Shown here piece by piece: positions 36,393 to 58,861 of a stretch of DNA of 64,000 nt (position 1 is its first letter; each line of letters starts with the position of its first letter). The notes under the pieces are model-generated. The model was not told the origin of the DNA. It was given only the letters and a program-made list of their open reading frames with translations, and searched no databases. The DNA is taken from contig JAENZL010000003.1 of assembly GCA_016841265.1 (NCBI GenBank), positions 124,001 to 188,000 on the forward strand. Reading direction: 5' to 3'. Made by a program: the position numbers and the translations under genes. The DNA is from Methanobacteriota archaeon. Lineage in GTDB: Archaea; Halobacteriota; Methanosarcinia; Methanosarcinales; Methanosarcinaceae.

Positions 36393-37068
36393 ATTCTCCT
36401 CAAACCTTTTTTGATCTGTTTATCAGGTGCTTGCCCTCTCACCTGCCTTCTCGCCTTTCCTCTCACCTGCGGCAAAGCCGGAGTCTTTTACAAAAATTAA
36501 ATTTGAGGATTGAATTCAAGCACAGCATCATGGTGGGTTGGAAATCCATCATTAAAGGAAACTGTGTGGCCGAGATGAGATGCATAAGAATTTTTAATGT
36601 TACTCCGATGACTGGGATTAACAGGGTCATGACTGTGTCGGGTACTGGGGTGACTTAAAAGGGTATTCCACTGACTTTCAATAGTGCCCAGATGGCTGTG
36701 CTGGGTACCGGGATGACTTAAAAGGGCATTCCAATAACTTAAAAGGGCATTCCAATGACTTTCCATAGTATCCAGATGGCTTTGCAGGGTACTGGGGTGA
36801 CTTAAAAGGGTATGCCAGTGACTCTGTGAATTGTATTTGAACACTCAAAAAGAAAAGCTGGGGGCTAATAAGGAGTCCTGATTCAAGAAAAGGATAAAAC
36901 TTCATCGGCAGGAAGTCCCCATCCCTAACTGCCAAAAGCAGGAAGTCAGAAAAGTGGGAGGGCAGGAAGGCAGGAAGTGGAAATTTTCCCTGAAATTGAT
37001 GTGCCAGTTGATTGCAAGCTGCATTCCTATTAATTTCCCTGCCAGCTTAACCAGCCCCACTTTAAATT
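36393..37068. other. Spacer between TPD gene and rad50, mostly a 21-bp array
   Basis: Two convergent genes end here. The spacer holds the 21-bp array at 36610-36830. Open frames across the array are periodic by construction and are not taken as genes. The rest (36393-36609 and 36831-37068) shows nothing recognisable. Confidence 0.6.
36610..36830. repeat. 21-bp tandem array with a three-unit (63-bp) higher-order pattern
   Basis: About ten and a half units begin at 36610 and every 21 bases to 36820, with no indels. Three unit types recur: GACTGTG/GGCTGTG...GGTACYGGGGT or GGGAT, GACTTAAAAGGG...TTCCA, and GACTTTC...CCAGAT. The order is roughly a-b-c-a-b-b-c-a-b. It therefore expanded by duplicating a trimer and once a single unit. 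Confidence 0.9.
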
Positions 37069-49766: not shown

Positions 49767-50828
49767 TTACATTTTGACTCTGCCGATATCGAGGTATTCG
49801 ACCGTTTCCTCTTTTTCCACTGCAAAAAGCATCCTCTTCCGGACACTGTTTGCAAGGCGCACGGCTCCGGACATTACAGGCAGCCTGAACTCAAAATCCG
49901 CAGGTATGGCGTCTACCAGGTACTCCGAGTGGGGGATCTTTTGTATGGACTCAACCTTCCGGTAGACCCTGAAATGGGTTCCGAACTTAAAGCCGGTCTT
50001 GGCAACATTCCCGGAGTCCCTGAGATCTTTATACACATTGTATTTTTGCAGGAAAGATGTTTCAATCCCCGAGGCATTCTCCACGAATTCCTCGAATGTA
50101 AGTTTCTCCCCATTCCTGTCTTTTACCTCAATAACCCCTTTGGAGAAAAGGTAGAGAGATTCCACAAGGGAAAGCTGAAGCCGCTCAGTATCCAGCATTT
50201 TCCCGAAAAAGCCCCTGTTATAGAGGGTTTCGGAAACGGACGGGTCCCAGACAATCACCCTGTCTTCAAGAAAGGTCGCTTCGGAAAATACTTCAGGGTA
50301 CGGTTTTGCCATATCCCCCTCAGGGGCATTACTTTTTACTTCATAGAAGGTGATGTCGCTTTCCCCGTCCACGATAGCAAGGATTAGCTGCTTGTGCACG
50401 TTTTCCGCCGATGCCACAGCCTCCTGAAGGGCCTTTAGCGGAAGAGGCTGCCTTTCGGACTGGACCTGGACAAACAGGTTTGCCGCACTTTTCCCGGGGT
50501 GGCTGCCCCTGGGGTAGACCCGGAAGTCCGTGCTTGAGGGCTGGACATAGTACCCCCTTTCCTTCAGGTCCTTGTAAACAATATACTTCAGCTCAAAATT
50601 AGGCTGCCTGAGTGAAGCCTGTTCGAAAAAAGCCCTGAAATCCAGGGCTTTTCCTTCCAGCTCGATCTCGAGCTTCCCGCGGTACAGGAGAAATGCAGCT
50701 TCTACAAGCCGGAGTTCAAGCCCGTCACCTTTGGGCCGCCCGAAATAGCCGGTTTTATAAAGTTCGTTGACAGCTTCCTTTCCGGCCCGGACTCTGTCCC
50801 CATTCAGTTTTGCTTTCAATAACTTCAC
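49767..50828 (-). CDS. endA: tRNA-splicing endonuclease, tandem-domain type
   Basis: A 353-residue enzyme made of two similar halves. Each half has an N-terminal GYFGRPKGDGLELRLVEAAF or GFFGKMLDTERLQLSLVESL segment, then YxVYKDLKERGYYV or YNVYKDLRDSGNVA. The C-terminal half holds the catalytic Tyr, His and Lys (FGTHFRVY, HSEYLVDAI, RLANSVRKRML). Two such chains form the dimer that cuts introns from pre-tRNA at bulge-helix-bulge sites. This length and duplication are standard for euryarchaeal enzymes. It lies 100 bases downstream of cfbB on the same strand. Confidence 0.94.
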   Translation of the reverse strand: MKLLKAKLNGDRVRAGKEAVNELYKTGYFGRPKGDGLELRLVEAAFLLYRGKLEIELEGKALDFRAFFEQASLRQPNFELKYIVYKDLKERGYYVQPSSTDFRVYPRGSHPGKSAANLFVQVQSERQPLPLKALQEAVASAENVHKQLILAIVDGESDITFYEVKSNAPEGDMAKPYPEVFSEATFLEDRVIVWDPSVSETLYNRGFFGKMLDTERLQLSLVESLYLFSKGVIEVKDRNGEKLTFEEFVENASGIETSFLQKYNVYKDLRDSGNVAKTGFKFGTHFRVYRKVESIQKIPHSEYLVDAIPADFEFRLPVMSGAVRLANSVRKRMLFAVEKEETVEYLDIGRVKM

Positions 50829-50931
50829 CTGAAAATAAAATATAAAAATGAATAAAATCAGCTTTCAGTGATTAATCCCAGCTTTTAGTATGCTTTTATT
50901 TATATAATTCTTCATTTATCTAATACTTCAC

Positions 50932-52515
50932 TTACTTTTTCTCTGCCCGGTATTTCCTTACCGCTTCCACAAAGGAGCCTGCCAGTTCCCTGTAGGCAGC
51001 CCCGTGCAGGTGGGCGTAGGAACCAAGGGTATTTTCAACCGTAAGCCCGTCGAGGTCTTCCTTGATGCCGGTGCCCCGGGACAGTTTTATGGCAAACTTT
51101 GCGTCTTCCGGGATTTCCCTGATTTCGGAGTGATGGAACTCATGTCCCTTGAAGGTGTTGCCTTTTTTCCCTATCACACAGTCACAGGCAAGGGTCCCGA
51201 TGTTATAGCTGACAACCCGGGTCTGCCCCATGATGGTATGTCCCGGGAGCGCCCCGACCATTTCATATGTGGACTCCGGCATGCTGGCATCGTGGTAGGT
51301 ACCTTTTCCGGGAACCCCGGTGCTTATTTTATCGGTCAGGTACATGAGCCCGCCGCACTCGGCGTAGATCGGCATGCCCGAAGCAGAAGCTTCTTTGATT
51401 TCCCGGCGCATGGACTCATTGGCTTCCAGTTCGGCGGCGAAGAGTTCGGGGTAGCCGCCCCCTATGTAGAGTCCTTCTACATCGGGAAGCCGGGAATCTT
51501 TCACAGGGCTGAAATAGATGATTTCCGCCCCGTCCAGTTCAAGGAGATCGATATTGTCGCGGTAGTAAAAGTTAAACGCCTCATCCAGAGCTATCCCGAT
51601 CCTGGGTTTCCTGGATTTTGGAATCGATCCGGGAATTGAACCGGATATCGATTCGGGAACTGAAAGGGAACCTGTCCCGGACTCAACTCCGGTAAAGATA
51701 CTGTTTTCCAGGGATTCCAGAGGTTTTGCGCTTCCTGCGATGGCAAGGAACCGGTCTATATCCACCCCTTCTTTGATGATCTTTTCAATTCCTTCGAGCC
51801 GTTCATCGAAGTCCCCGAGCCTCCTTCTGCCTTCAAGGGCGGGCATGAGCCCCAGATGACGCATGGAAATCTGCATGGACGGGTCTCTCGGAATTATCCC
51901 GATAACCGGGACCCCGGCGTAGTATTCGATTGCCTGCTTTGCCTTTTCCGCATGTCTGCGGCTCCCTATATTGTTCAGTATGACTCCGGCAATTTCCACA
52001 TCGGGGTCAAAATTTTTGTACCCGTTTATAAGGGCCGCACTCGAACGGGTGATGCTCCGGGCGTTGATTACGAAGACCACGGGACATTTGAGGAGCTTTG
52101 CAATCTGCGCAGTACTCCCTACGTCGCTCAGGCTCTCGAAACCCTCGTAAAGCCCCCGGACTCCTTCGATAATCGCTATGTCCGCTCCTTCTCCTACTTC
52201 GCAGGCATGGGTGTAAACGTCCAGGATCCCGTTTTCGTCCATCAGGTAACCGTCGAGGTTCCGGCAGAACCTGCCCGTGATTTCTGTATGATAGCTGGAG
52301 TCGATGTAGTCCAGGGCAACTTTGAAGGGCTGGACCTTATAACCTCTGGAGGCAAGGACAGCCATCAGCCCCATGGAAATGGTTGTTTTCCCGGAGGAGG
52401 AACGGTCTGCGGAAATAAGGACCCTGGGAATTTTGCTAGCATCCTTTCCGGACTGCTGCTCATTCATTCCGGACCGCTGCTCATCCATTCCGGACTGCTG
52501 TTCTTTCGAATACAT
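50932..52515 (-). CDS. cfbB: Ni-sirohydrochlorin a,c-diamide synthase (F430 step 2)
   Basis: A 527-residue CbiA/CobB-type amidotransferase: an N-terminal ATP-binding domain (RVLISADRSSSGKTTISMGL) and a C-terminal GATase_3 domain with YAECGGLMYLTDK, whose Cys releases ammonia from glutamine. In the F430 pathway it converts Ni-sirohydrochlorin to the a,c-diamide. The match to CfbB rather than a cobalamin enzyme rests on its place beside cfbC, cfbD and cfbE. Its first 25 residues are variable and encoded by a 21-bp repeat, so the true start may be a later Met. It is the last gene of the cfb run. Confidence 0.93.
   Translation of the reverse strand: MYSKEQQSGMDEQRSGMNEQQSGKDASKIPRVLISADRSSSGKTTISMGLMAVLASRGYKVQPFKVALDYIDSSYHTEITGRFCRNLDGYLMDENGILDVYTHACEVGEGADIAIIEGVRGLYEGFESLSDVGSTAQIAKLLKCPVVFVINARSITRSSAALINGYKNFDPDVEIAGVILNNIGSRRHAEKAKQAIEYYAGVPVIGIIPRDPSMQISMRHLGLMPALEGRRRLGDFDERLEGIEKIIKEGVDIDRFLAIAGSAKPLESLENSIFTGVESGTGSLSVPESISGSIPGSIPKSRKPRIGIALDEAFNFYYRDNIDLLELDGAEIIYFSPVKDSRLPDVEGLYIGGGYPELFAAELEANESMRREIKEASASGMPIYAECGGLMYLTDKISTGVPGKGTYHDASMPESTYEMVGALPGHTIMGQTRVVSYNIGTLACDCVIGKKGNTFKGHEFHHSEIREIPEDAKFAIKLSRGTGIKEDLDGLTVENTLGSYAHLHGAAYRELAGSFVEAVRKYRAEKK
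52448..52507. repeat. 21-bp tandem repeat in the cfbB 5' coding region
   Basis: Units start at 52448, 52469 and 52490 (CCGGACYGCTGCTCATYCATT). In the protein they give repeated EQQSGMDEQRSGMNEQ-like residues ahead of the ATP-binding domain. They keep frame, so length can vary without harm. Confidence 0.85.
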
Positions 52516-52575
52516 AGTTTTTCAACGCCTCTGAGGTTTTTTAGTCCCCTTAGCTCCCTTATTGGGAGCTCATTT

Positions 52576-53373
52576 TTACTTTGTCATTTCCCTTAACCTT
52601 TCATCGGTAAGGGAATCTGCCATGACCTTCTTTTCGTTTTCCATGATCGCTTTTCCGAGCCTGCGGTAGACGTCGGCGATGTCGGAATCGGGGGCTTTTT
52701 CCATAACGGAGTAGCCGTTTCGCTCACAGTCCTGGACTATCTGGCTCTTGGGGATGAAAGCCATCAGCTGACTCCCGATTTCCTCTGAGAATTTGGTAAC
52801 TATTTCCTCTTCCCGGCTGGCATTTCTTGAGTTGCAGATAACGCCGCTGAGAGGCATGTTTATCTTGGTAAGCCCCTTGCAGATGTTGTTTGCGGCGTAG
52901 AGGGGCATGTATTCCCCGGAGGTCAGGACATAGGCTTCGTTTACGTACCCTTTCCGGATAGGGGCTACAAACCCTCCGCAGACAATGTCCCCGGGCACGT
53001 CATAGATGATCAGGTCCTGCTCTTTTATAAGCTCCGCAGAAACGCTTTTTAATTTCTGGACTGCCACGATGATACCCCTGCCCGCACAGCCGATCCCGGG
53101 CTCTGGCCCTCCGGCTTCTATGCATTTGACACCGGCGTAACCTTCGAAAACCATGTCTTCTTCCGTGACTTCAATGCCTTCCCTGAGGAGGTCAAGAATG
53201 GTTGGAATCCTTTTTCCCCCCAGGAGGGTGATGGACGAGTCACTCTTCGGATCGCAGCCGATGATCATGACCTTCTTTCCTGCTTCCGCACAGGCTGCTG
53301 CCACATTGGATGCGGTGCTTGATTTACCTATACCGCCTTTCCCGTAAATTGCAATGATCTTTTGTTTTTTCAC
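52576..53373 (-). CDS. cfbC: NifH-like reductase component CfbC (F430 step 3)
   Basis: A 265-residue iron protein. [19 protein letters not shown] is the ATP-binding loop, and GIGCAGRGI and [10 protein letters not shown] supply the two Cys that bridge a 4Fe-4S cluster in the dimer. It passes electrons with ATP hydrolysis to CfbD for the six-electron reduction and ring closure of Ni-sirohydrochlorin diamide. It is distinguished from nitrogenase NifH by the cfb context. It sits 60 bases before cfbB and 108 bases after cfbD. Confidence 0.96.
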
Positions 53374-53481
53374 AGGATCTTCCTCCCTTTTTTAAACTAT
53401 TTTCCTTTTTATCCCGAATTCGCCTTTTTCAGCCTTGAACTTCCTTTTCAGGTTTTTTCCAGGCTTCCTTTCAGGTTTTTT

Positions 53482-54606
53482 TCAGGCTTCCTTTCGGGTT
53501 TCCTTTGCAATTTCCCTTAAAGTGGCTCCAAACTCGGATTCCACGATGTTGCTGACCCCGAGGGTCTTTGGATGGAGGTCGATTTCCACCAGGACGTACT
53601 CATGTCCTATCTCTTTCAGGGGCAGGACCTGCCTGGGTCCGTTCGTAACTGAGATAAGTTCCATGCCCTCAATATTTTCCATGGGGATGGCATGCGGGAC
53701 ACCCGTAATTACCGCAAAGTCGTAATCACTGTACTTTTCTTTGATCAGCTCGCTGACCTTTTCCCCGGCTATCGGGTATTCGTCCATGCCCCCGATGATC
53801 TCGTGTATCTCAATGCCATGGGCTTTCAGGTCCCTCATAATGTATTCGGCATGCTTCCTGACCCTGGGAAGTCCCACGTTTTCATCTAGGTTTGCCATGT
53901 TCACGATGGAATCCTTTTTTCCGAGGGAGGCTGCGACTTCGTTTACTGCAAGAGTGATATCGGCAAACATGTAGCCGGTTTCCTTCTTTGCGTTCATTAT
54001 CGTGATTCCACGTTTGCCTTCCTTCAGGAGTTCGATAACCCTCTTTGCGACAGTGTACTTGATATCTCCCCTGGAAGGTGCCAGGTACTCCCTGCTTGCA
54101 GCCCCGAATTTCTTTTCGACTTCCGTTGCTTTTGCAAGCAGGTACTCCTGCCGCTCGAATTCCTTACGGTCGATGATCCCGGCATCAAGCGCTGATTCCA
54201 GGGCAAAGATCACGCCTTTCGTATTGTTGTGGTAGCCTGCGTGCACCTCAACCTCTATGACCGGGACGTCGGGGTTTGCCTCAAGCACGGCTTCGTGCAT
54301 CTCTTCCCCTATGATCATGCTGGCACAGGTCCCGACAACACCGATAATTTTCGGGGAGAAAAGTTCGACGGACTTGTTGATAAGCTGCACCAGCTTGTCA
54401 TGCCCTCCGAAGACAAAACCGTTCTCATCAAGGGCGGTGGTCACCACATGAATCCCGTCTTCCTCAAGAAGCCTTGCGTGTTTGAAGGAGCAGCCTGGAG
54501 GGCCGTGCAAGATGGCAACATCGACGTTCAGGTCCCTGAGGGTGTAAAGGGCCGCAACGATAGAACTCGGGCGGGGGTGAATTATTGAAATCTCTTTTCC
54601 GGTCAT
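53482..54606 (-). CDS. cfbD: NifD-like catalytic component CfbD (F430 step 3)
   Basis: A 374-residue member of the nitrogenase-like family: [20 protein letters not shown] at the start, [19 protein letters not shown] with a conserved Cys, and [19 protein letters not shown] with another; these likely bind its Fe-S cluster. With CfbC it makes 15,17(3)-seco-F430-17(3)-acid. The archaeal complex uses a single type of NifD-like chain, and only one such gene is present here. A 581-base spacer with a 24-bp repeat array separates it from cfbE upstream, so it may have its own promoter. Confidence 0.96.
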
Positions 54607-55187
54607 GACAAATCCTCTGTTTGTTGATTTTTCGGGATGTTGATAGGCATTTTCCTCCGGTTCCCTGTGGGTGGAAACGGCATTTGAGGAAAAGCAAGAG
54701 CCGTTAAAAGCCCGATTAAATGGTCAATGGGTTTGAATAAGCAACTGAAGTGTATTTTGAATAAGCAACTGAAGTGTATTTTGAATAAGCAACGGAATTT
54801 GGGTTCAAGTAATTAATTGAATTGGAGCTTGAATGTGCAAAGGAAACGTGCTTTGAATAAGCAACGGAATTTGGGTTCGAGTAATTAATTGAATTGGAGT
54901 TTGAATGCGCAACGAAAATATGCTTTGAATGCGCAACGGAGACGTGCTTTGAATGCGCAACGGAATTAGGTATGGATAATCAATGAAATTCAAATATGGA
55001 TGGGTAATGGAGTTCGAGTTTGAATAATCAACGAAATTGTGTTATCAATAGAAACGAATACAGATTGTAAGACCTTCTATAAAACAATATCATAAAAATA
55101 CGGAAAATAGAGGGAAATCCTAACAGAACCCCCCGGAAAAATCATATGAAAAAAATGAAAAATCATTTTTATTTCATCCGTTTTATT
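54607..55187. other. cfbE-cfbD spacer
   Basis: It holds the 24-bp array at 54733-55042 plus AT-rich flanks (about 55043-55140) and a short region before the cfbD start. No gene is recognised; open frames here are products of the repeat. It interrupts an otherwise compact cfb gene run. Confidence 0.6.
54733..55042. repeat. 24-bp tandem array, about 13 units, with 72-bp higher-order period
   Basis: Units begin at 54733 and then every 24 bases to 54997, then 55020. The consensus is close to TTGAATAAGCAACGGAATTT. A trimer of diverged units (starting TTGAATAAGC, TCAAGTAATT, TTGAATGTGC) at 54781-54852 recurs at 54853-54924, giving the 72-bp period. Conservation decays toward the right end. Confidence 0.93.
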
Positions 55188-56588
55188 TTACCGGAAACAC
55201 TTAACAGAAGAAATAATGATGTCTGTTTTCCCCGCAAGTTTCGAAGCTTTGGAAAGTCCCTCCGGAAGGCTTGCCGCATATGCCACGTTTCCTGCTCTTA
55301 TGTCCCGCATCCGCTCGCCCACAAGGACGATGCGTTCGAACTTTTTTCCGTATTTTTTCACAAAGCCCTGCACGGCTTCCGGGGGCAACCCTTCACAGAC
55401 CTGGGCGGCTTCTTCTCCCAGGACAAGGAAAATTTTCTGCTTTCGCTCATCCTTTTTCTTCAGGAGGGCATATTCGAGAGCCTTTTCAGCCGAGCGGATA
55501 TCCATGCCCGAGTTGGAGTTGTCGATCAGGGCTATTCCTTCCAGTTCTTTTTCCTGCATCCTGCCTGCAAGCCCCCCGAACTCTTCGAGGGTTTTAACCA
55601 CGGTCCTGTTTTCTACCCCGAGTTCCAGGGCTGCGGCAGACGCTGCCACGAAGGCTGTCCTGTAAGCCAGACTATTATATCCGGGTTGCAGGCGGGCAGT
55701 GAAGAGTTCCTGGTCCCGACAGAGGCAGTGGATGTTATCCTCTTCGGTTTCCAGGATAAAGTCAGCGTTTTCCCCCGCTTCGGGGTAGAAAGGGTCTCTG
55801 AATGTGATTTTTTTGACTGCTTCTGGAATTTTTTTCCCGGTATTTTCCAGAGCTTTTTCCACAGCTGCGTTGAGGATGAGGACAGTTCCGGGTCTTGCCG
55901 TGCGGACTAGCTGGAGCTTTGCCTCACCTGCAAGGGAGCTATTGTTTGCAATCCCGTAGTCAGGGGTAAGGGTGGTCAGAATCCCGAGGTCAGCATTTCC
56001 CGTGCCCCCGATCGAAATTTCAAATATGAAATATTCAGGCCTGATCCCGGCTTCGAAGGTCCTGTCAATTGCGACAAGGATGCTTCCGGGAGTAATACTC
56101 AGACCTTTGCGGATTTCGGAGGGTACCCCCCCTTTCCAGGCTTCAAGCCCCCGGGAAGTATGGAGGACTACCCGGGACTTGCGGGAGAGCATGTCCGCAA
56201 GCAGGGAAGCTGTACTGGTCTTTGCCTTTACGCCTGTGATTTCAATCGTCCGGGTCCCGGCCAGGTGTGGGTCCTTATCAAGAATCATTCCGACAATCCG
56301 GTGGTGAGAAAGGACAGGTTTTTTGGTCTTCCGGGCTTCGGCAAGCATGGGGTAAGCCGGGTCCAGGTGTACGGGTGCAGCCAGCAGGTCGAAAGTCCCG
56401 ACCGGCAGGGGCTCTCTGGAAGTCCTTATCCCGTACTTGTCTTTCAGTTCCGAGAGGGTGGTGGGGTCAACCGTATTGTACACGTCGACGGCAGAGACTT
56501 CTGCCCCGAGTTCTGCCAGTTTGATAGAAATAGGAATCCCGCCGTGCGTCAGGTCTAGCACAGCGATTTTTTTCCGGTCAAGGTCCAT
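55188..56588 (-). CDS. cfbE: Coenzyme F430 synthetase CfbE (Mur-ligase-like)
   Basis: A 466-residue Mur-ligase-like enzyme. [20 protein letters not shown] opens an N-terminal Rossmann part, [20 protein letters not shown] is the ATP-binding loop, and [20 protein letters not shown] with [11 protein letters not shown] marks the C-terminal domains. It closes the last ring of F430 by ATP-dependent activation of a propionate. It is 18 bases downstream of cfbA on the same strand. The Mur-ligase fold and context leave little doubt. Confidence 0.93.
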
Positions 56589-56606
56589 GAAAAATTAGAC
56601 GAAAGT

Positions 56607-57011
56607 TCAGGCAGTTATATTTTGCGCTTCCAGGACCCTCTTGAAAATGAGATCTGCGATCAGTTCATCGGCCCCGAGGGGTTTTGCGTAGCAAACAGGC
56701 ACTTCCTTGCCGTCGATATCGAGTTTCCCGCAGCCTGATTCGTCCAGGTCAAGTTCTCCGGGGATGTCTTTGGTGATATGGACTCCCGACGCAATAAAGA
56801 CCGGAACTGCGGCAATCCTGGTGACCCCTGTGCCTGAGAATTCTTTTACAGCTTCTTTGATCTTCGGGTCACTGTGTTCCACGAACCCGACTCTGATAAC
56901 ATCCTCAGGGTGCTTTTTTGCAATAATATCCGCGATTTCCAGGATTACTTCCTTGTTGTACTGAAGCCTGCTTCCGTGTCCGATTACCAGTATTCCGAGT
57001 TTTTCATCCAT
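56607..57011 (-). CDS. cfbA: CfbA-type sirohydrochlorin nickelochelatase
   Basis: A 134-residue small CbiX-type chelatase. [20 protein letters not shown] and [20 protein letters not shown] supply the two metal-handling His residues. It inserts nickel (and in vitro cobalt) into sirohydrochlorin, the first step of F430 synthesis. As a homodimer it is the ancestral half-size chelatase. It lies directly before cfbE. A close paralogue at 57403 shares the same motifs, and which of the two serves F430 cannot be told from sequence, although this one is the operon member. Confidence 0.93.
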
Positions 57012-57072
57012 CGCTCATTCCTCATTCTCCTGGCTCTTTAAGGCCCCTCTGGCTGTAGCATAAATAATATTT

Positions 57073-57087
57073 AAGTAAACTTTACTT
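57073..57087. promoter_or_regulatory. 15-base palindrome upstream of cfbA
   Basis: AAGTAAA and TTTACTT are perfect inverted arms around a single C, 62 bases upstream of the cfbA start. A related palindrome, CAAGTTAACTTG, is at 57183-57194. Both could be operators for a regulator of F430 synthesis; that is inference. Confidence 0.4.
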
Positions 57088-57339
57088 GATAATTATGAAT
57101 ATCCAACCTATATGAGTATTCTGATTAAAATGCTGTCAACTATCACTAAAAACAGTCTGAATTTTATAAACTGCAGGGAATACAAGTTAACTTGATTTAA
57201 ATCTCGACAGAGTTAACGGGGTAAACACAAAAGAAGAGGGAAGAAGGAAGAGGAAAGAAGGAAGAGGGAAAAGGGGGCGAGAAAGCTGCAAAAGCTAACT
57301 GAAGAAAACGGTAGAATGGGACGGGAAATATAAAAGACT

Positions 57340-57364
57340 CCGGGCCAAAAAACCCGAAGCCCGG
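57340..57364 (-). terminator. Hairpin terminator candidate after the second cfbA-type gene
   Basis: CCGGGC (57340-57345) and GCCCGG (57359-57364) form a six-pair GC stem. On the minus strand it lies about 40 bases beyond the stop of the gene at 57403 and is followed by AGTCTTTTATATTT. Confidence 0.5.
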
Positions 57365-57402
57365 AAAAAATTGCGGAAAACAAATTCCGCGGTTTGGAAG
57401 AC

Positions 57403-57801
57403 TTAGATTGCTTCTTCTACTCTCTTGTAGACGAGGTCTGCGATCAGCTTGTCGGCGCCCAGGGGTCCGGCATAGCAGATAGGTACTTCGGTCCCGTCAA
57501 CCATAAGGGTTCCACATCCGTTTTCGTCCAGGTTCAGAATGTTTGGGATGTCCTTTGTGATGTGCACACCCGAGGCTAAGAAGACCGGTACGGCTGCGAC
57601 TTTCGTGACCCCTGTCCCTGAGAAAGCTGCAATAGCTTCGTTCAGGGTAGGCTCGCTGTTCTCCATGAAACCGGCCCTTACGACCACGTCAGTGTGGTTC
57701 TGTGCAATGTAATCAGCGATCTGTGTAACAACTTCCTTGTTGTAAGGCAGCTTGCTCCCGTGCCCGATGGCCAGGATTCCGAGTTTTTCTGTCATTTTCA
57801 T
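57403..57801 (-). CDS. Second CfbA/CbiX-type sirohydrochlorin chelatase
   Basis: A 132-residue paralogue of the chelatase at 56607 with the same landmarks: [20 protein letters not shown] and [20 protein letters not shown], keeping both metal-handling His residues. The two proteins share the aligned stretch GTGVTxxAAVPVF as well. A methanogen needs both nickel insertion (F430) and cobalt insertion (cobamide), so one copy may be dedicated to cobalt; this is inference. It is separated from cfbA by a hairpin and a 391-base spacer, so it is probably a separate transcript. Confidence 0.9.
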
Positions 57802-57946
57802 AACCTCTTCATTTTTGTAATTAACACAATAATTTAGATTTGTAATATCTTGAAAGTTTTAGATACTTGGAATTGATGGAATATAACTTTTTTGAAAGCC
57901 TAAAGTTTCACATAAAAATTTCAAAAGAGGTTCCTGTCCCTTAACC

Positions 57947-58861
57947 TCAAAACTCAACGAGCCCGCCAGGATAGTATGCGACCCTCGCTCCTTCCAGGTA
58001 CATACCTCCCGGATGCAGGTAGCCGTTTGACCCGCTCCAGTCCAGGTTCATCCAGTACTGACTCTCCCCCTTTTCAAGGTCCCGTTCCGAATACCAGATG
58101 CTTTCCGCATAGGAATAGCGCTCGTATACATAATACAAAATCTCATACGTTGTGTCCTGATCGTCTCCTATATAAATTTCGGGATAAGCATGGCCGTAAG
58201 TCTCGGTTCTCACCGTAACGATCCGCGTATTGAAACCCATGTTCTCCATCAGTGCGGACATGACGATAGAATAGTCATCACAGTCTCCCTTATACCCGTC
58301 CCTTATCGTCTGTGCCGCCCCAAAGAAAAACTCGGAATTCTTATCATATCTGTACTCCCACTCCCCGTTCACATAATCAAAAACGGCACAGACATCTTCG
58401 ATATCGTACTCCGAGTCTTTCCCGGTTATCCTGTAGATCTCCCGGGAAATTTCTTCATCTTCGGGATCAACCGCCCTATTAAAATTCAAAGAAATTATCC
58501 GGTAGTCTTTGGGATAAACCGCACTTGATATTTCCTCGGTGTAAGTCGGGACTCCGGGTACTTCCACCGAAGAAGAAGGAGATGGAGACGAAGGGGACGA
58601 AGGTGGAGAAATCTCACTTTCCGGGTTCTCCCCTTCGATCTCACTTCCACCGGCTTCGCCGGAACCCGCCTCATCCTCAAGGACATGCTCCGCCCGGTCG
58701 GCTACGAAACGCTCAACTTCCCCAACGATGAGATTCCTCATTTCAGGAATTACCTCTTCGGCCTCATCCGTTGAAAAGGCAGGATAGTCTATGCAGCCGG
58801 AAGTAAGGAAAATAAGGAGAAATGTTATTGGGATGAGTTTGAAGGAGCTTAGTTGGGGCAT
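57947..58861 (-). CDS. Transglutaminase-like lipoprotein
   Basis: A 304-residue exported protein. Residues 9-23 end in a lipobox (LIFLTSGC), so Cys23 is probably lipidated. A linker rich in Ser and Pro (about 85-105) leads to a transglutaminase-like domain with the Cys-His-Asp set: YKGDCDDYSIVMSALMENMG, GHAYPEIYIGDD and YWMNLDWSG. Members can be proteases or peptide-linking enzymes acting at the cell surface; the substrate is unknown. It is a stand-alone gene between the cfb cluster and a TnpB element. Confidence 0.87.
   Translation of the reverse strand: MPQLSSFKLIPITFLLIFLTSGCIDYPAFSTDEAEEVIPEMRNLIVGEVERFVADRAEHVLEDEAGSGEAGGSEIEGENPESEISPPSSPSSPSPSSSVEVPGVPTYTEEISSAVYPKDYRIISLNFNRAVDPEDEEISREIYRITGKDSEYDIEDVCAVFDYVNGEWEYRYDKNSEFFFGAAQTIRDGYKGDCDDYSIVMSALMENMGFNTRIVTVRTETYGHAYPEIYIGDDQDTTYEILYYVYERYSYAESIWYSERDLEKGESQYWMNLDWSGSNGYLHPGGMYLEGARVAYYPGGLVEF

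Follow-up and report, generated by a model that had tools for sequence, protein, structure and literature searches.

The tandem array between cfbE and cfbD in the window, which is the whole 64,000-nucleotide stretch of DNA analysed here, is probably a private and fast-changing satellite of neutral effect, lying in the leader of the cfbDCB genes in a satellite-rich lineage. The genome that contains the window is a draft assembly (3.65 Mb, 67 contigs). The coenzyme F430 gene run reads cfbE, array, cfbD, cfbC, cfbB on the minus strand, and the four gene names given in an earlier note on this DNA hold, all of them scoring over their NCBIfam cut-offs. The features are as follows.

55188 to 56588, minus strand: cfbE, coenzyme F430 synthase (NCBIfam NF033197, 412 bits, cut-off 250)
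55047 to 55098, minus strand: conserved block, predicted promoter, present in 23 of 24 spacers and adjoining the upstream side of the array
55037 to 55056, minus strand: predicted leader start, placed by a putative transcription start; the homologous Methanosarcina stretch resembles the array unit
54732 to 55042, minus strand: array, 13 units of 24 bp, partly in 72-bp trimers (TRF, anchored scan, self-match)
54607 to 54731, minus strand: stretch from the array to cfbD, which can be aligned among the 4 species of the genus
53482 to 54606, minus strand: cfbD, Ni-sirohydrochlorin a,c-diamide reductive cyclase catalytic subunit (NCBIfam TIGR03282, 579 bits, cut-off 268)
52576 to 53373, minus strand: cfbC, ATP-dependent reductase subunit of the enzyme of CfbD (NCBIfam NF033200, 415 bits, cut-off 402)
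50932 to 52515, minus strand: cfbB, Ni-sirohydrochlorin a,c-diamide synthase (NCBIfam NF033195, 673 bits, cut-off 560)

Three marks of a satellite were used in this analysis: units shorter than 30 bp arranged head to tail well above chance, a unit private to one locus at 0-1 mismatch, and a copy number that differs between relatives. The array shows each of them. Within the 581-bp cfbE-cfbD spacer of the window, TRF found overlapping 24- and 72-bp arrays at 54732-54965. A scan anchored in the sense of the genes (minus strand) recovered 11 units with at least 13 of 24 matches, and the gaps accommodate two further units, more diverged but in register, giving 13 in total, to about 55042; this agrees with the roughly 13 units of 24 bp with a 72-bp period given in the earlier note. 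The units follow each other head to tail, the step from the third to the fourth being 23 bp. Their mean pairwise identity was 0.56 (12 units in a fixed register) compared to 0.28 for 1000 dinucleotide shuffles (sd 0.011, maximum 0.32), and the spacer reached a TRF score of 265 against a best of 73 among 500 shuffles of it, 127 of which yielded some TRF row scoring at least 30. The array is a genuine tandem repeat, far above chance. Self-match amounted to 0.62, 0.57, 0.62 and 0.55 at lags of 24, 48, 72 and 96: the 72-bp order is real, but the 24-bp order is at least as strong. Read in the sense of the genes, the array is 35% T, 30% A, 25% C and 10% G. The unit, CGTTTCCGTTGCTTATTCAAA, is confined to this place, since all six matches found in the genome at 0-1 mismatch fell inside the array; at 2 mismatches, 17 matches lay outside it, compared to 6 for the reversed control. 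A likeness had also been claimed to a second array, near 36610, and it extends to the periods of the latter (21 and 84 bp, both multiples of three) and to nothing further. Reading frames of 104, 115 and 85 amino acids, called mechanically, overlap that array.

Copy number was compared between the window and three other species of its genus (L032, L004 and L033), with one genome per species. The array was present in all four, a presence that mild selection would also explain, and its flanks align at 73-91% identity. About 4 units were counted in L032 (UBA9310, whose CfbD is 97% identical to that of the window), about 4 in L004, 13 in the window and at least 17 in L033, the last count being a lower bound on account of an N gap inside the array; draft assemblies may moreover collapse array lengths. 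The variation in copy number that had been anticipated is thus seen, between species. Within the genus, a TRF score of 50 was reached by the window and L033 alone.

The wider comparison showed how common such arrays are at this locus. At 71 of 75 loci, a cfbE was located upstream of cfbD and in the same orientation; the others are L082 and three loci whose contig ends just before or within cfbD (L045, L085 and L098). Twenty-four spacers were studied closely: 4 from the genus of the window, 19 Methanosarcina-like and that of L050, from another genus. L045, whose contig starts 54 bases before cfbD, was omitted, and L003, L005, L006, L007 and L008, which are the same places as L032, L033, L036, L047 and L050, were counted once. 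These 24 spacers measure 299-728 bp. At the 49 loci outside Methanosarcina and the window genus where cfbE was found (L052 onward), the spacer measures 7-368 bp, and at most 38 bp in 18 of them. Different arrays occupy the same leader in 6 of the 20 spacers outside the genus (L034, L041, L042, L047, L048 and L097); L093 has an array upstream of the conserved block, and L050 has one without the block. In all, 10 of the 24 spacers reached a TRF score of at least 50, whereas 20 rounds of shuffling gave 0.05 of 24 on average. Arrays were also found in the cfbD-cfbC spacer at 6 of the 24 loci, and the window as a whole contains 17 arrays with a TRF score of at least 80, against none in 20 Markov windows.

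Several further observations were made along the gene run. A second array, of about 23 bp, spans the end of cfbD and the cfbD-cfbC spacer (53440-53501), a spacer whose length among the four species of the genus is 108, 119, 71 and 176 bp. A 21-bp array lies within the start of cfbB (52446-52507), and the window, L032, L033 and L004 have N-terminal CfbB peptides of different length and repeat content. Two cfbA-like genes stand in tandem at 56607-57011 and 57403-57801, both over the NCBIfam cut-off for sirohydrochlorin nickelochelatase. At eight Methanosarcina loci (L035, L037, L038, L044, L046, L051, L093 and L099) the best match to cfbE was no more than partial, and in several of these tandem repeats begin at the break, as if they had been inserted in cfbE.

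Satellites of Methanosarcina have been surveyed, reportedly by Subirana and Messeguer. In the part of the survey available, the genus is said to stand out, with 1908 satellites in nine species, and units shorter than 30 bp are given as the most numerous group (PMC6749651). The abundance of arrays in the window and in the leaders fits this reported richness. Like the satellites described in that part of the study (PMC6749651), the present array is made of head-to-tail units shorter than 30 bp in the same archaeal family; unlike them in general, it is considered at a defined place, a predicted F430 leader, with its copy number compared between species. It also recalls the tandem repeats of Borgs, as far as the accessible portion of PMC9879509 describes them, by its intergenic units of similar length in methane-cycling archaea. 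Borg units are however perfect, A-rich and recent (PMC9879509), whereas those of the window are diverged and richest in T; assignment to the Borg type, which requires perfect units, was rejected on the mean identity of the units.

In contrast to the array, the sequence just upstream of it hardly changes. The block of about 50 bp that adjoins it contains the TATA-like TTTTATA at 55078-55084, and its consensus, TATGATACAATTTTATACAGGCTCTTCCAATCTGTATTCGTTTCCATT, was matched at 40-48 of 48 positions in all 4 spacers of the genus and in 19 of the 20 outside it; the sole exception, L050, gave 20 matches of 48. Mean column identity was 0.85-0.97 in ten-base bins within the block and dropped to 0.41 at 90-99 bases from the block start. 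Allowing up to three mismatches, the block pattern had a single match in each of 9 of the 60 family genomes, covering 4 of 4 genomes of the window genus and 5 of 5 of a second genus (g8), and was absent from the other 51; in all nine it lies before cfbD. The distance from the end of the block to the cfbD ATG ranged from 150 to 553 nt among the 23 spacers, N removed. Scans for bacterial-type signals returned 2 promoter sites against 1.9 expected, a model that is uninformative for an archaeon, and 2 terminators against 0.4 expected. We also observed an inverted repeat, TACAG...CTGTA, within the block at 18 of the 19 Methanosarcina-like loci, the left half of which is altered in all four species of the window genus.

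In Methanolobus, the distance from promoter to transcription start is given as about 19-22 nt in the part of PMC5378194 available. Applied to the block, this distance would place the cfbD transcription start near 55056-55059, and the array would begin within about 20 nt of it. The suggestion that the array itself might hold a promoter was not supported, because the conserved TATA block lies upstream of it and is kept even where the array is short or absent. The statement of the earlier note that any cfbE-cfbD transcript would pass through the array is supported, and the same applies to a cfbD transcript. No transcript continuing from cfbE into cfbD is needed, since the block would let cfbDCB transcription begin immediately ahead of the array. 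Judged from the sequence, the most likely arrangement is that cfbDCB has a transcript of its own, with a 5' leader occupied by the array, and that the predicted promoter lies outside the array.

Variable-number tandem repeats occur in bacterial promoters. The present array is similar in that its copy number varies in a control region, and differs in that it lies downstream of the promoter-like block and that its variation is known at the species level. Its copy number might tune the output of cfbDCB through leader length, messenger stability or ribosome access, which we consider unlikely. Its position between the conserved block and cfbD and the differences in copy number by species are compatible with tuning, as are the long leaders of the related Methanolobus psychrophilus, where 24% of messengers are said to have leaders longer than 150 nt (PMC5378194, in the part available). 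The leaders of L032 and L033 folded slightly better than 40 shuffles (z = -1.83 and -1.27), but in the window the fold of neither leader nor array was better than that of its 100 shuffles (z = 0.85 and -0.16), and the predicted leaders outside the genus vary more than two-fold in length, from 150 to 323 nt, with different contents, which argues against tuning. Of the other leaders (24 folded, 40 shuffles), L047 and L050 folded better (z = -2.8 and -2.5) and L048 worse (z = 2.5); L047 and L050 are without the array of the window. A structured RNA leader or riboswitch was rejected on the fold of the window and on a search of positions 50000-58000, where no Rfam match was found at the gathering threshold.

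It is quite unlikely that cfbDCB transcription starts downstream of the array, which would then be an upstream region or the tail of read-through from cfbE. A second TATA-like stretch, TTTAATCGGGCTTTTAACGG, lies near 54700-54720 between array and cfbD; judging by its sequence, it could place the cfbD start after the array or act as a second promoter. It is identical in 3 of the 4 species of the genus, keeps 18 of 20 bases in L033, and sits 112-115 bases before the cfbD ATG. In the 20 spacers outside the genus, however, its best match was merely 11-14 of 20 bases, at scattered places, and the upstream block is present in all of these save that of L050.

Closer to cfbD, a Shine-Dalgarno-like GAGG is found at 54614-54617 (minus strand), which we take to be the ribosome site of the gene. 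A frame of 15 codons (54603-54650) follows a Shine-Dalgarno-like sequence, and its TGA stop overlaps the start codon of cfbD. Frames of this kind, with an ATG and such a TGA, were found at 4 of the 24 loci (window, L004, L034 and L044), preceded by a ribosome-site-like stretch in the window, L004 and L034; the frame was not retained as a conserved feature.

The unit itself resembles the sequence at the predicted start of the leader. Compared with the consensus leader start, CGTTTCCATTGCTTGTTTAAA, the unit CGTTTCCGTTGCTTATTCAAA agrees at 18 of 21 bases. Shuffling the unit gave agreement this good in 1 of 3000 trials and shuffling the consensus in none of 3000, which suggests local duplication as the origin of the array. 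The resemblance was weaker when the majority consensus of the window's own units was used, 49 of 3000 shuffles then matching the leader start equally well, and against the leader starts of single loci the unit beat all 60 shuffles at 9 of 19. The unit thus probably arose by duplication of the conserved leader start, an origin that is likely but not proven.

The same match, directly after the promoter-like block, would also fit an array in which a protein- or RNA-binding element of the leader start has been multiplied, so that a regulator of the F430 genes would meet many sites instead of one. We regard this as very unlikely, since no regulon appeared: in nine genomes, the leader-start pattern (up to three mismatches) gave 20 matches at places other than the array and the cfbD leader, where the reversed control gave 15, and the units of the window have drifted far apart. 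Dispersed regulon sites built on the unit itself were not supported, the unit being without another site in the genome at 0-1 mismatch. Less credible still is the more specific proposal that the array is the amplified initial transcribed element of cfbD, the first 20 nt of which a regulator would read as DNA or RNA, with 4 to more than 17 sites by which each species would set its cfbDCB output. Finally, the array is most improbable as the gene of a short repeat protein (24 being a multiple of three). A 62-residue frame with a TTG start spans part of it (54805-54993, minus strand), and all four species have stop-free stretches with similar peptides across parts of their arrays, which in L032, where the array is short, cover almost the whole of it. 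However, one-base shifts disrupt the frame in the window, L033 and L004 and leave partial open stretches, no single frame is open across the whole array in the window or L033, and a stop-free unit, once repeated, remains open by itself.

We propose that the array is a private satellite (a minisatellite) carried in the cfbDCB leader, in the following way. The conserved block at about 55047-55098 would start transcription some 12-20 nt before the array; the RNA would then cross about 310 nt of repeat, poor in G and with no stable structure detected, followed by another 125 nt of leader up to cfbD. The unit would have arisen from the duplicated leader start, probably, in a lineage whose genomes appear to form such arrays readily, and the array would grow and shrink by slippage or unequal recombination. 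Its main effect would be a longer and variable leader, probably tolerated rather than selected, the two ends of the leader (promoter-like block and ribosome site) being kept and the middle left free. An influence of leader length on cfbDCB expression is a possible, candidate effect.

As a satellite, the array is ordinary. Literature searches covering the F430 genes, mapped transcription starts, and repeats and leaders in methanogens brought up no paper that treats this locus. Expression of cfbE is said to track that of mcr in M. acetivorans, in the part of PMC11267899 available. A useful by-product of the analysis is the block between cfbE and cfbD, which is strongly conserved, gene-specific and promoter-like in Methanosarcina and in the genus of the window. 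It suggests that expression of cfbD, cfbC and cfbB, three genes for making the nickel cofactor used in methane formation, can be separate from that of cfbE, and it offers a precise place to probe the control of F430 synthesis.
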